Of a DNA stretch of 64,000 nt, positions 38,680 through 42,543 are shown one piece after another. The stretch spans positions 1,364,001-1,428,000 of the forward strand of contig QBKD01000001.1 in assembly GCA_003053925.1 (NCBI GenBank), in the 5' to 3' direction. The stretch's first letter is position 1, and each line of letters begins with the position of its first letter. This DNA comes from Microbacteriaceae bacterium MWH-Ta3. GTDB taxonomy: Bacteria > Actinomycetota > Actinomycetes > Actinomycetales > Microbacteriaceae. The notes below the pieces were generated by a model. The model was not told the origin of the DNA. It was given only the letters and a program-made list of their open reading frames with translations, and did no database searches. A program made the position numbers and the translations under genes.

Positions 38680-39951
38680 GTGCGTACCGTTCTCGCCGTC
38701 GTACTCGGGCGAATTGTCCGAGTACTCACTCGCCTTCGTGGGGGCGGTTCTGCGCTGCCGGGTTGGGTTGCACTCCGCGTCGCGCCGAATTTTTTGTCGA
38801 CGGTTTTTGATACGTTCGCGAGTCGTGGCGAGGCTCCCATCATCGTCGTGACGGGTTCGAACGGTAAATCGACGACAACCGCCATGATTGTGGCCGCGCT
38901 CGAGGCGAATGGGCACATCGTTTTTTCCAATCCATCCGGAGGCAATTTGCCGCAGGGCGTGGCATCTGCAGTGCTTGCCTCGGTGTCACTCAGGGGCTCG
39001 CTGAAGGCCTCGGCAATTGTGCTCGAACTCGACGAGGCCTATGGACCCAAACTGGTGGCCACAATCAAGCCGACTCATGCCGTGCTTCTGAATATTCAGG
39101 TCGACCAGCTCAACCGATTCTTTGAACCCGAGCGCGTCATCGAAATGGTGCATCAGATTGGTGCGTCGGCACAGACGATTATTGTCAACGATGCCGATGC
39201 AAACACCCGCGCCATCGGAAATATTTTGGCCATGCAAAGTCATGCTGTCTATGGCTTCGATGTTGACCCCGCTGCAGCACCACGGGGCGTATATGACGCG
39301 CACGTTGGAATACAAACCCGGGCAGATCGTCGTGCTCCTCGCGCGCTCGTTACTGCGCAGTCTGCGCGAGTGACGGGCATTGAGGTTGATGGTGAGACGG
39401 TGTCCGTCCACCTGCCCGCTGCTGGTCTGCATTACGCGCTCGACGCGGCAGCGGCCATCGCGACCGTTGCCGTGGTTATGGGCTCGCGCCATGATGCCTC
39501 GGTCTCGGCACGGGCGATTTCCGACCTCAATCCGGTCTATGGGCGCGGTGAGGAGGTCCAGGCCTTCGCGGCCCCCTTGACGATTGTCATGATGAAAAAC
39601 CACCCCAGCTTGCAGATGAATCTCGATGCGCTACAGGAGGCGCCTGAATCGCTCTACATGGCGGTCGATGAGGGAACGCCCGATCCCAGTTGGATCTATG
39701 ACATTGATGTGAGCGCACTCGACCACGTTGATGTCCTGTCTGGCACCAAGGCATGGCAGTGGGAAACACGTTTGGCGTATGCCGAGATTCCCGTAGGTCT
39801 CGTCGAGGAGAACACTTCCCGCGCTTTTGCCCATTTTGGAGTTGCGACGACGCCGTCCCGTCAAGAATTTCGCACCGCGATTGTGAACTACGAGCAGATG
39901 ATGGATCTGCGTCGCGAATTGGGATACAAGGAAATCGAGGGTCAGCAATGA
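38680..39951 (+). CDS. murT: MurT-like Mur ligase (lipid II isoglutaminyl synthase subunit), cysteine-free
   Basis: A 423-residue Mur-ligase fold protein with C-terminal DUF1727. The ATP P-loop is VVTGSNGKSTTTAM (about residue 57) and ELDEAYGPK carries the Mur-type acidic residue. The C-terminal domain has MMKNHPSLQMNLD and DEGTPDPSWIYDID with the conserved Asp. In the classical enzyme MurT activates the alpha-carboxyl of D-Glu in lipid II and receives ammonia from GatD. Classical MurT has a four-cysteine zinc ribbon in its middle domain; this protein contains no cysteine, so the ribbon is gone. It starts at GTG 38680, five bases after sigA, and overlaps gatD (ATGA). Confidence 0.88.
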   Translation: MRTVLAVVLGRIVRVLTRLRGGGSALPGWVALRVAPNFLSTVFDTFASRGEAPIIVVTGSNGKSTTTAMIVAALEANGHIVFSNPSGGNLPQGVASAVLASVSLRGSLKASAIVLELDEAYGPKLVATIKPTHAVLLNIQVDQLNRFFEPERVIEMVHQIGASAQTIIVNDADANTRAIGNILAMQSHAVYGFDVDPAAAPRGVYDAHVGIQTRADRRAPRALVTAQSARVTGIEVDGETVSVHLPAAGLHYALDAAAAIATVAVVMGSRHDASVSARAISDLNPVYGRGEEVQAFAAPLTIVMMKNHPSLQMNLDALQEAPESLYMAVDEGTPDPSWIYDIDVSALDHVDVLSGTKAWQWETRLAYAEIPVGLVEENTSRAFAHFGVATTPSRQEFRTAIVNYEQMMDLRRELGYKEIEGQQ

Positions 39952-40643
39952 TTCGCATCGTCCACGTGTATCCCGAAGTGCTCGGACTCTTTGGTGATTC
40001 AGGTAACGTGTTGGCGCTCCGTAAGCGTGCCGAGTGGCGGGGAATCCGCGTAGCGGTCACAGAGGTAGAGCTAGGCCAGAAGATTCCCTCGAATGGCGAT
40101 ATTTACCTCATCGGGTCAGGTTCATCCAGTGCGGTGAAGCGCGCGGCTGAACACGCTCGCGCGCTCGCTGATTCTGTAGGAAGTGCCGTCGCACAATCCG
40201 CACAGGTGCTGGCAATCGGCGGGGGAATGCATCTGCTGACTCGGCGCGTTGATTGGTCGGACGGCACCTCGGTTGTGGGCGCCGGGCTCATTGATGGCGT
40301 TTCCGTACCGCGCTCCCAGCGGCTTGTGGGCGAGTTCATTGGGTCGACGGACGGTCTTGACGTGGCGGGGTTCATCAACTCGGGGCACGACGTTGTCACC
40401 AACCTCGCCCCGCACATTCGTGACATTCACGGGCTCTCAATTGCGTCCGATGGCGTCGTTGCGGGGACCATCATCGGTACCCATTCCCACGGAGCATATT
40501 TACCCATGAATCCTGCGGTAGCAGACCGCATGTTGGTTTCTGCGCTGGGTGATGAACTTCCGGACGGAAACGAGGCACTTCGCCGTGCCACTCATGCGGC
40601 AAACGAGTCTCGTCGCGCTATTCGTCAACGAATCGGTCGATAA
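39948..40643 (+). CDS. gatD: GatD-like glutamine amidotransferase homologue lacking the catalytic cysteine
   Basis: A 231-residue CobB/CobQ-type class I amidotransferase domain paired with MurT. The nucleophile elbow, normally AxCAGxQLL, reads LAIGGGMHLL: Gly91 (codon GGC, 40218-40220) replaces the cysteine. The later histidine is kept in GTHSHGAYLP (His181). There is no cysteine anywhere in the protein, so glutamine hydrolysis by the usual thioester route is impossible. It overlaps murT by four bases and must be co-translated, which argues for a retained structural or altered catalytic role. The homology to GatD is clear from the N-terminal VYPEVLGLFGDSGNVLAL segment. Confidence 0.87.
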   Translation: MIRIVHVYPEVLGLFGDSGNVLALRKRAEWRGIRVAVTEVELGQKIPSNGDIYLIGSGSSSAVKRAAEHARALADSVGSAVAQSAQVLAIGGGMHLLTRRVDWSDGTSVVGAGLIDGVSVPRSQRLVGEFIGSTDGLDVAGFINSGHDVVTNLAPHIRDIHGLSIASDGVVAGTIIGTHSHGAYLPMNPAVADRMLVSALGDELPDGNEALRRATHAANESRRAIRQRIGR

Positions 40644-40677: not shown

Positions 40678-41700
40678 CTAGGCGTACACGCGACGGACTG
40701 ACGAGGGCACAGACGTCACAATTTCGTCGCCAATCGTGCCCATCCAGGCGGCCCATTCTTCGGCGGTTGCGCCTCCCTCGCCAAAGATGATGCACGACAT
40801 TCCCACACGAACATCTGTCGTGTCGAGCTCAATTTCCGTGGTCCGTGCATGAACCGCCCGAACGGCATAGCGAGTCTGCGAAATGGTGATTTCACCACCG
40901 TTGTCGCCGCCGACCGGCACACCGTCCGCCCACCCTGCACCGATGATCGCACCATCGTGTCGAACCTCGATGACCTCGCTCGTCAGAGTCATGACGGGTC
41001 GCAAACCCAGCGCACGCCCATCTCTATCATCGAACGGCGAAATGCCGTATGCGGCGATACCAACCCTGACGCCGTCGTGACGCGATTCGGGTTCACTCAG
41101 TGCCGCAGAACTTGCGGCAATATGGCACATGTCGGGCGACAATCCTGCGGCACGAGCAGAATCGATGGCACGATCAAAATTTACGAGCGCACGACGATCG
41201 TGTTCCGGACCGGCATCCGCGAGGTGCGACCACACGCCAACCACACGAATCGAACCACGACGCTCGAGCTCGGCGGCGATGTCACACAATGATTGCCAGT
41301 CTGCTTCCGAGAAACCATTTCGGTGCAGACCTGTATCGATTTTGAGATGCACGCGCGCGACACCGGGAACCGCTGCAACTCGATCGAGCTGTTCGCGGGT
41401 GGAAATCCCTAAATCGATGTCCTGTGCCACCGCATCCGCGAATCGCGAGTGTGCACCGTGCAACCAGGCAAAAAGAGGAGCCGCGACTCCCGCCGATCGA
41501 AGTGTCAACGCACTCTCAATATCCAGCACCGCACAACCGTGTGCTCCTGCATCAAGTGCATTGTCGACAAGTTCGCTCATTCCGTGACCATAGGCATTCG
41601 CCTTCACCGCAATCCAGGTTGCGGCAGGTTTCACCGACGACACAATGGACCGAACGTTGTGTTCAAACGCCGCAAGGTCAATATGAGCGATTGCGCTCAC
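40678..41700 (-). CDS. alr: Alanine-racemase-like PLP barrel subunit lacking C-domain catalytic residues
   Basis: A 340-residue alanine racemase homologue. The barrel is intact: PLP lysine K33 in AVKANAYGHG with Y37, K120 and R127 in HLKIDTGLHRNGF, H159 in VWSHLA and R212 in VRVGIAAYG. In the C-terminal domain about 18 residues are missing after EVIEVRH, removing the SYGxTW segment with the catalytic tyrosine (Tyr265 in the Geobacillus enzyme). The RxxMDQ segment is replaced by AVHARTT, and the tyrosine of GTIxYE is D325. GTG at 41700 is chosen because it overlaps the stop of the upstream paralogue (GTGA). It probably works with that paralogue; the substrate may be alanine or another amino acid. 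Confidence 0.88.
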   Translation of the reverse strand: MSAIAHIDLAAFEHNVRSIVSSVKPAATWIAVKANAYGHGMSELVDNALDAGAHGCAVLDIESALTLRSAGVAAPLFAWLHGAHSRFADAVAQDIDLGISTREQLDRVAAVPGVARVHLKIDTGLHRNGFSEADWQSLCDIAAELERRGSIRVVGVWSHLADAGPEHDRRALVNFDRAIDSARAAGLSPDMCHIAASSAALSEPESRHDGVRVGIAAYGISPFDDRDGRALGLRPVMTLTSEVIEVRHDGAIIGAGWADGVPVGGDNGGEITISQTRYAVRAVHARTTEIELDTTDVRVGMSCIIFGEGGATAEEWAAWMGTIGDEIVTSVPSSVRRVYA

Positions 41701-42323
41701 GACACCCACCGCCGCTCTATACGCCACCCAAGGTTATGTATGACAATCAGCGGGTCCCGTGCACCATTCGCCGTCCAGGTACTGATGGGGGCGTCGGTCG
41801 TCCACAGCGTCGCGAGATCTCCAACCGAGGCATGTCCATCGGTGATGTCCACGACGAACTGATCCATTGCGATTCGGCCTACAGTGGGCAGAATGACGTG
41901 ATTAATAACTGTGAGCCCCTGATTCGAGGCGCCACGGGGGATACCGTCGGCAAAGCCCAAGGCCACGAGAGCCAGGGTTGAATCTCTTTCGGCGGTCCAG
42001 GTGTATCCATACGACACCGACTCGGCTTTGGGGATTGCCTTGACCGCGACCACCTCGCCCGCAACCGTTGCCACAGGCGACCCGCCGCTTAATCCGTAAA
42101 GCTGGCGCGATGTAGCCGGAATGGGGTCGTCGGAATCGTTTTCCCAGAACTGGTGAAATCCGAAGCTGTGTGCGATGTCACGAACCCATGATTGCCCGTG
42201 CCCATAGGCATCGTTGCGCAGATCCAGCGGCTCGTCTACGCCGACGGCGTTCCGAAGCAGCGCCACATTCTGCGCGAGAGCTGTCGCCGAAAATTCAACG
42301 GCTCTGTAGGGGGAGTTAGACAC
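41697..42323 (-). CDS. Truncated alanine-racemase paralogue: C-terminal domain with catalytic tyrosine, barrel mostly deleted
   Basis: A 208-residue protein. Residues 1-60 resemble the start of alanine racemase, including DAYGHG, but the PLP lysine is R36 and about 150 residues of barrel are absent. From about residue 75 the C-terminal domain is well conserved: the catalytic tyrosine Y105 in SVSYGYTW, RDSTLALVALGFADGIPR, and M153-D154 in GRIAMDQFVVD. These are exactly the elements missing in the adjacent gene, with which it overlaps by four bases. Because each racemase active site joins one subunit's barrel with the other's C-domain, this looks like a dedicated partner subunit. It starts at GTG 42323, overlapping the upstream gene by eight bases. 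Pseudogene decay is the alternative. Confidence 0.85.
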   Translation of the reverse strand: MSNSPYRAVEFSATALAQNVALLRNAVGVDEPLDLRNDAYGHGQSWVRDIAHSFGFHQFWENDSDDPIPATSRQLYGLSGGSPVATVAGEVVAVKAIPKAESVSYGYTWTAERDSTLALVALGFADGIPRGASNQGLTVINHVILPTVGRIAMDQFVVDITDGHASVGDLATLWTTDAPISTWTANGARDPLIVIHNLGWRIERRWVS

Positions 42324-42543
42324 CGTGTCCGGTTCGCAGTCGCGCAGTTTCGTCCAACCATTCGAGCGCGGTAGGCATCAGACGGTCGCGAACCTCGTCT
42401 GCATGGTGGCCACAAAACATTAATTCGCCATGCTTGAGCGTCACTCGGACGTAGGCTTGTGCGCCACACGAATCGCAGCGGTCGAGTGCCGTCAGCTGCG
42501 GCACAACAGCGGTCGAGGTGTCGAGTGATGCATTCGTTGTCAT
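42316..42543 (-). CDS. Small zinc-binding protein, DUF7455-like
   Basis: A 75-residue protein with C-x2-C in LDRCDSCGAQAYVRV and a second ligand set in MFCGHHADEVRDRL, forming a likely zinc ribbon. Such proteins commonly flank parE in Actinobacteria and have no assigned function. AAGGAGA precedes the ATG at 42543. Its end overlaps the start of the truncated racemase gene by eight bases, making it the first gene of a three-gene minus-strand operon. It is divergent from parE across 167 bases; that space shows no feature I can name beyond candidate promoter hexamers such as TAGCCT at 42675-42680. Confidence 0.82.
   Translation of the reverse strand: MTTNASLDTSTAVVPQLTALDRCDSCGAQAYVRVTLKHGELMFCGHHADEVRDRLMPTALEWLDETARLRTGHGV

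Follow-up and report, generated by a model that had tools for sequence, protein, structure and literature searches.

The window analysed here, a stretch of 64,000 nucleotides from Microbacteriaceae bacterium MWH-Ta3, contains two overlapping genes, A and B, each of which retains a different half of an alanine racemase (Alr) active site. Alanine racemase is a head-to-tail dimer in which Tyr265 and Met312 of one subunit complete the active site of the other, and A and B very likely form a one-site, asymmetric heterodimer of this fold. The complementary residue pattern is directly observed, while the complex and its activity are inferred. The features of the locus are as follows, with positions given relative to the window.

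38680..39951, plus strand: MurT-like Mur ligase, a neighbour in many relatives
39948..40643, plus strand: GatD-like glutamine amidotransferase adjoining A, its start inferred from an ATGA overlap with MurT
40678..41700, minus strand: racemase gene encoding subunit A, 340 aa (ORF, Pfam and residue alignment)
40726..40728, minus strand: codon of A D325 at the Tyr354 position, Asp/Glu in 52/52 A proteins (alignment)
41602..41604, minus strand: codon of A K33, the PLP lysine, equivalent to Lys39 in G. stearothermophilus numbering
41697..41700, minus strand: GTGA overlap of the B stop and A start, 4 bases; translational coupling is inferred
41697..42323, minus strand: subunit B, a truncated barrel remnant plus an intact Alr C-domain, 208 aa (ORF, Pfam and alignment)
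41865..41867, minus strand: codon of B M153, Met312 position (alignment)
42009..42011, minus strand: codon of B Y105, catalytic Tyr265' position (alignment)
42216..42218, minus strand: codon of B R36, in place of the PLP lysine (alignment)
42316..42543, minus strand: DUF7455 small CxxC protein, overlapping the B start; almost all relatives have it close to the pair

The previously listed open reading frames, coordinates and minus-strand orientation of both genes were rechecked on the window and are correct. Alignment of A confirmed that K33, Y37, K120, R127, H159 and R212 are all present, that the SYGxTW loop and the RxxMDQ segment are deleted or replaced, and that the GTIxYE motif has become GTIGDE, the acid being D325. 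Pfam searches gave 183 bits to Ala_racemase_N and a weak 40 bits to Ala_racemase_C, and the TIGR00492 score of 174.8 bits lies above the cut-off of 168. As an alanine racemase, A qualifies by its N-terminal PLP barrel with the catalytic lysine (K33) and fails on the catalytic Tyr265 and RxxMD segment of the C-domain, absent from 52/52 A proteins, and on the alanine-gate Tyr354. Nor does it qualify as a VanT serine racemase, having Asp and not Asn at 354, scores against VanT models far below cut-off and, at 340 aa, no space for a membrane domain, or as a Lyr/Bar lysine racemase, with Asp and not Thr/Ala at 354. In a single-chain AlphaFold2 prediction A adopts the full Alr fold (pLDDT 94.3, pTM 0.91) with a TM-score of 0.96 to S. 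lavendulae Alr (1VFT/1VFH); in silico it folds well alone, complete with a small C-domain.

B has lost approximately 150 barrel residues and carries R36 at the position of the PLP lysine, and both SVSYGYTW (Y105) and GRIAMDQFVVD (M153, D154) are present. It scored 98 bits to Ala_racemase_C and 100.7 bits to TIGR00492, the latter below cut-off. Judged as an alanine racemase, B fails on the PLP lysine and Arg136/His166/Arg219, the barrel being mostly deleted, and meets the C-domain requirement with Tyr265, Arg309 and Met312, with which the fold match agrees. The AlphaFold2 model (pLDDT 80) has a good C-domain, with block means mostly >85 from residue 81, a loose remnant at residues 39-64 (pLDDT <50) and no formed PLP pocket; its best structural matches are Alr (TM by query 0.58). 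The C-domain of B is as similar to canonical Alr as to other B proteins. The initial annotation, made from sequence alone, had described the retained residues, the losses and the GTGA overlap, all of which held on rechecking the sequence. Its further claim, that A and B make up a composite site with neither complete alone, is supported by the 52/52 pairs, at least three origins, fusions and selection described below; the complex and activity remain inferences.

B precedes A on the minus strand and the overlap between them is out of frame; an overlap of four bases was found in 19/29 surveyed pairs. The recurring order at the loci of relatives is SigA, (MurT-GatD), B-A, DUF7455, ParE, ParC, with rearrangements, and the gene order at the window locus is common to named Microbacterium genomes. 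A link between DUF7455 and the function of the pair need not exist. The MurT-GatD genes (38680-40643) were observed to adjoin the racemase pair, and the peptidoglycan of this family is of type B, with the cross-link on the D-Glu alpha-carboxyl. This adjacency was considered as proof of substrate and rejected; the two genes lie beside the pair at many, not all, loci. The window, at G000:C1:1364001-1428000, belongs to a 1.56-Mb genome that contains one further intact canonical alr (G000:C1:923306-924358), and the pair is therefore not the sole alanine racemase candidate there.

To describe the pattern in relatives, 120 Microbacteriaceae genomes were searched with A and B, and loci with a short B-type ORF beside an A-type ORF were aligned. 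Pair counts refer to 52 A/B pairs that were aligned, drawn from over 20 genera of the Microbacteriaceae. A profile of the A C-domain separated A from Alr poorly, and counts were therefore taken from aligned loci; a scan of named genomes with the A profile returned mostly canonical Alr matches. Lys39, Lys129, Arg136, His166 and Arg219 are present in 52/52 A proteins and Tyr265 in 0/52, with position 354 occupied by Asp in 31 and Glu in 21. Conversely, Lys39 is found in 0/52 B proteins, 45 of which have Arg there, and Tyr265 and Met312 are kept in 52/52 each and Arg309 in 48/52. That the complementary pattern recurs in every pair points to more than chance. Intermediates were also found: A_L106 still has the loop, reading GWFGG instead of VSYGx, and B_L086 and B_L102 are nearly full length with the lysine already gone. 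Four close comparisons gave dN/dS of 0.10-0.26 for A and 0.13-0.27 for B, indicating purifying selection on both genes. Moreover, constraint is complementary by domain, identity being higher in the half that each subunit needs. Within-class identity of A is 45.1% in the barrel versus 36.5% in the C-domain, that of B is 42.3% in the C-domain versus 29.7% in the barrel remnant, and intact upstream tandem genes (Tup, see below) have 53.5% and 56.6% in the barrel and C-domain respectively.

B loci found solely via a codon pattern for the Lys-to-Arg change formed an independent test set. A adjoins B at all 16 true B loci of this set, with one A truncated by a contig end and one frameshifted. At L300 (4595-5811, genome G402) A is split over two frames, by a frameshift or a sequencing error, and B is intact. 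The examined loci yielded no A lacking a nearby B. The strict codon pattern has matches in 44/400 Microbacteriaceae genomes and 19/85 genera, which is a minimum for B, although a few of the matches are fusions. It misses the B of the window itself (motif RNDAYGHG) and also catches AGY (Ser) codons, three such matches being fusions. The same strict pattern, which would miss a B like that of the window, yielded no B-type motif in 19 other families of the order (362 genomes). Within the genus of the window, G145 has the pair at the same locus with a different A class (L311, G145:C30), and the pair was not found in G067 or G199. Cryobacterium sp. Y11 has two full-length Alr genes and no degenerate pair, showing that members of the family can lack the pair; some are missing both the pair and the Asp/Glu354 tandem described below.

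A and B also occur naturally as single chains. Three matches of the codon pattern proved to be ORFs of 624-701 aa, each with two Alr halves. A search with one fused query identified fusion ORFs of 624-725 aa in 11 genomes (L314-L324, from G367, G393, G340, G020, G308, G100, G270, G150, G226, G175 and G405). The first half keeps Lys39, Arg136, His166, Arg219 and Tyr354 and has lost Tyr265 and RxxMD, while the second half, its barrel truncated, has Ser/Thr/Gly at Lys39 and retains VSYG and GRxAMDQ. In G020, G100, G226, G270, G308 and G150 the fused query matches nothing but the fusion, which in G020 and G100 is also the sole match to the A and B queries. Ordinary peptidoglycan requires D-Ala, and fusions that are the sole Alr-type gene are thus the best evidence that the complementary arrangement racemises. 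The presence of Tyr354 in the fusions as against Asp/Glu in A suggests that the substrate may vary by lineage.

Full-length Alr tandems were found at another locus in several genomes without the degenerate pair, including Curtobacterium sp. PhB115. The downstream tandem gene (Tdn) has Asp or Glu at 354 in 12/12 cases, and the upstream gene (Tup) has Tyr, or Trp in two cases. A and Tdn group together in the barrel tree (SH-aLRT 99), and their clade has two parts, class I (Ile222, Asp354) and class II (mainly Ala222, Glu354); the first halves of the fusions form their own clade outside it (support 98). In the C-domain tree, built on 132 columns, B groups with Tup (support 88). Forcing all degenerate A into one clade was rejected (p-AU 0.0019 and 0.0014), which implies that the tyrosine segment was lost in A at least twice. 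The trees were quick searches, and the AU test was picked post hoc, once the tree had been seen. On these trees A derives from a Tdn-type tandem duplicate and B from the upstream Tup, and the split has three or more separate origins, comprising at least two A lineages and the fusion lineage. The tandem full-length pairs (Curtobacterium L216, G011, G026) share the gene order of A/B and Asp/Glu354 in the downstream gene but, unlike A/B, keep all catalytic residues in both genes, and are probably the ancestral form. Among the tandems L088-L098 and L216, one Tup class was seen to have Cys at the carbamylated-lysine position and MN replacing MD.

In the mechanism that we propose, A would contribute the barrel together with the Schiff-base lysine and the residues that bind PLP, and B, its own barrel given up, would donate its C-terminal domain across the interface, bringing the catalytic Y105 and the Met/Asp segment. 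A second site, made from the B lysine and A tyrosine positions, would be dead. That B Y105 would lie opposite A K33 is inferred by analogy, through homology and the natural fusions, since only single-chain models were made. The starting point would have been a normal Alr (Tup) with a tandem copy (Tdn) bearing Asp/Glu at the specificity position 354. Both partners would then have lost the residues of the redundant site; this would have happened in two or more lineages, and a further lineage would have joined the halves into one chain.

The head-to-tail logic is shared with alanine racemase (fold-type III, TIGR00492; 1VFH of S. lavendulae, 1XFC of M. tuberculosis, 1SFT of G. stearothermophilus), as are the PLP lysine, carbamylated-lysine position, Arg136, His166 and Arg219 in A and Tyr265, Arg309 and Met312 in B. 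However, known alanine racemases are homodimers with two identical sites, whereas A and B keep one half each and Tyr354 has become Asp/Glu. Lyr and Bar (PMC3485190) have the Alr fold and, like A, a changed Tyr354 position, in their case in enzymes acting on basic side chains; they are homodimers with Thr/Ala at 354, where A has Asp/Glu. Trypanosomatid deoxyhypusine synthase and AdoMetDC/prozyme (PMC3663545, PMC5201418) likewise combine an impaired subunit with a dead paralog, but these are unrelated eukaryotic folds for which allosteric activation has been described, whereas the A/B partner is predicted to donate catalytic residues. No description of a split racemase system was found in the open-access literature searched. 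As a homodimer alanine racemase is a textbook example, and it is also a drug target; in these genomes it is naturally divided, repeatedly and also in fused form, with the PLP in one half and the tyrosine in the other. The split racemase clearly illustrates, in bacteria, how two paralogs can come to need each other through complementary loss, and is a natural tool for asking which site matters in a shared-site dimer.

The substrate is inferred. The residue at position 354, Tyr in alanine racemase, forms part of the inner gate, touches the PLP phosphate and helps to set specificity, and is Thr/Ala in lysine and broad-specificity racemases and Asn in VanT (PMC3485190). Asp/Glu in every A and Tdn would, by inference, fit a basic side chain. 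The type-B walls of Microbacteriaceae contain D-Orn or Dab. D-Orn walls have been described in M. sufflavum, the M. testaceum clade (3/4 species) and the M. liquefaciens/oxydans clade (PMC10757982), and genomes of M. sufflavum and of both clades carry the A/B pair; Rhodoluna has a D-Ala-D-Dab peptide (PMC4156110). A limited literature search found no enzyme behind the D-Orn/D-Dab of type-B walls, for which the pair is a candidate racemase. A D-diamino acid (Orn/Dab/Lys) for type-B peptidoglycan is the leading option for the product of the window pair, with the case for it and against it nearly evenly balanced, and D-Ala is a possibility that ranks after it. A bolder reading, which we would not quite back, is that a repeatedly evolved one-site heterodimer makes the D-diamino acid of the type-B bridge, with Asp/Glu354 binding the side-chain amine, and that its single-chain version is the sole alanine racemase of another lineage.

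A different situation exists in the reduced genome G015 (927,303 bp; L082, L251, L253), which we take to be, probably, Tropheryma whipplei, and which has no Alr-type genes besides A and B. A D-Ala-D-Ala ligase (Ddl) is present, and neither of its two class IV aminotransferases is a D-Ala aminotransferase, these being aminodeoxychorismate lyase/PabC and IlvE by score. The A protein (A_L082) is very divergent, with Tyr43 replaced by Asn. The separate A/B pair may produce D-Ala there, and thus bears on D-Ala supply in this organism.

The plainest alternative is decay, in which the genes are pseudogenes of a redundant alr tandem and their complementarity is coincidental. In its favour are the canonical alr elsewhere in the window genome, the absence of the pair from some relatives and the frameshifted A of L300. 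Against it stand open frames and an identical residue pattern throughout the 52/52 pairs, which span over 20 genera, dN/dS of 0.10-0.27, the pair as the only Alr-type genes of the reduced 927-kb genome and the fusion alone in six genomes, and we regard decay as very unlikely and largely refuted. The initial annotation had likewise argued against simple decay, a claim supported by the 52/52 pairs, purifying selection and sole-gene fusions. It had suggested aligning relatives, where B proved always to be paired with an A without Tyr265 (52/52 aligned pairs), and searching for a third, canonical alr, of which one was found (C1:923306-924358). The combination that it named as refuting, a canonical alr elsewhere with B frameshifted or absent in close relatives, is half met: the canonical alr exists and the whole pair is missing in G067 and G199, but no A without B was seen at examined loci.

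It is also unlikely that A is an active homodimer with changed PLP chemistry (a one-base racemase, lyase or other enzyme) working without Tyr265, and B a regulator or stabiliser. The good folding of the A model alone with its complete small C-domain, and the change of Tyr354 to Asp/Glu in all A, would suit such an enzyme. However, B keeps Tyr265, Met312 and nearly always Arg309, precisely the partner-completing residues, having lost its own PLP site, and A-B fusions exist. Equally, the true partner of B might be the cell's canonical Alr and not A, which would make B a decoy or modulator; the B C-domain is indeed as close to canonical Alr as to other B. This is very unlikely, because A adjoins B at every locus examined, mostly overlapping, B is fused to an A-type half in a third lineage, and G015 has no canonical Alr. 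A milder alternative retains the heterodimer and makes alanine its substrate, as a second or backup alanine racemase. This remains possible: the G015 pair is the sole Alr-type enzyme alongside Ddl, and in six genomes the sole Alr-type match is a fusion, which keeps Tyr354. Weighing against it are the intact alr of the window genome, Asp/Glu without exception at the specificity-tied position 354 of A and Tdn, and the alteration of I222 in one A class. The substrate had been put forward initially as alanine or a diamino acid; the intact alr and Asp at 354 make the label 'alanine' doubtful for the window pair, and the diamino option stands.

Lastly, one of the two Alr proteins of Cryobacterium sp. 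Y11 (L215 / L121) groups with Micrococcaceae Alr in the trees, and horizontal transfer is a possible explanation. Microbacterium sufflavum (L208, L209) has two A/B pairs, one at the ParE locus and the other elsewhere.
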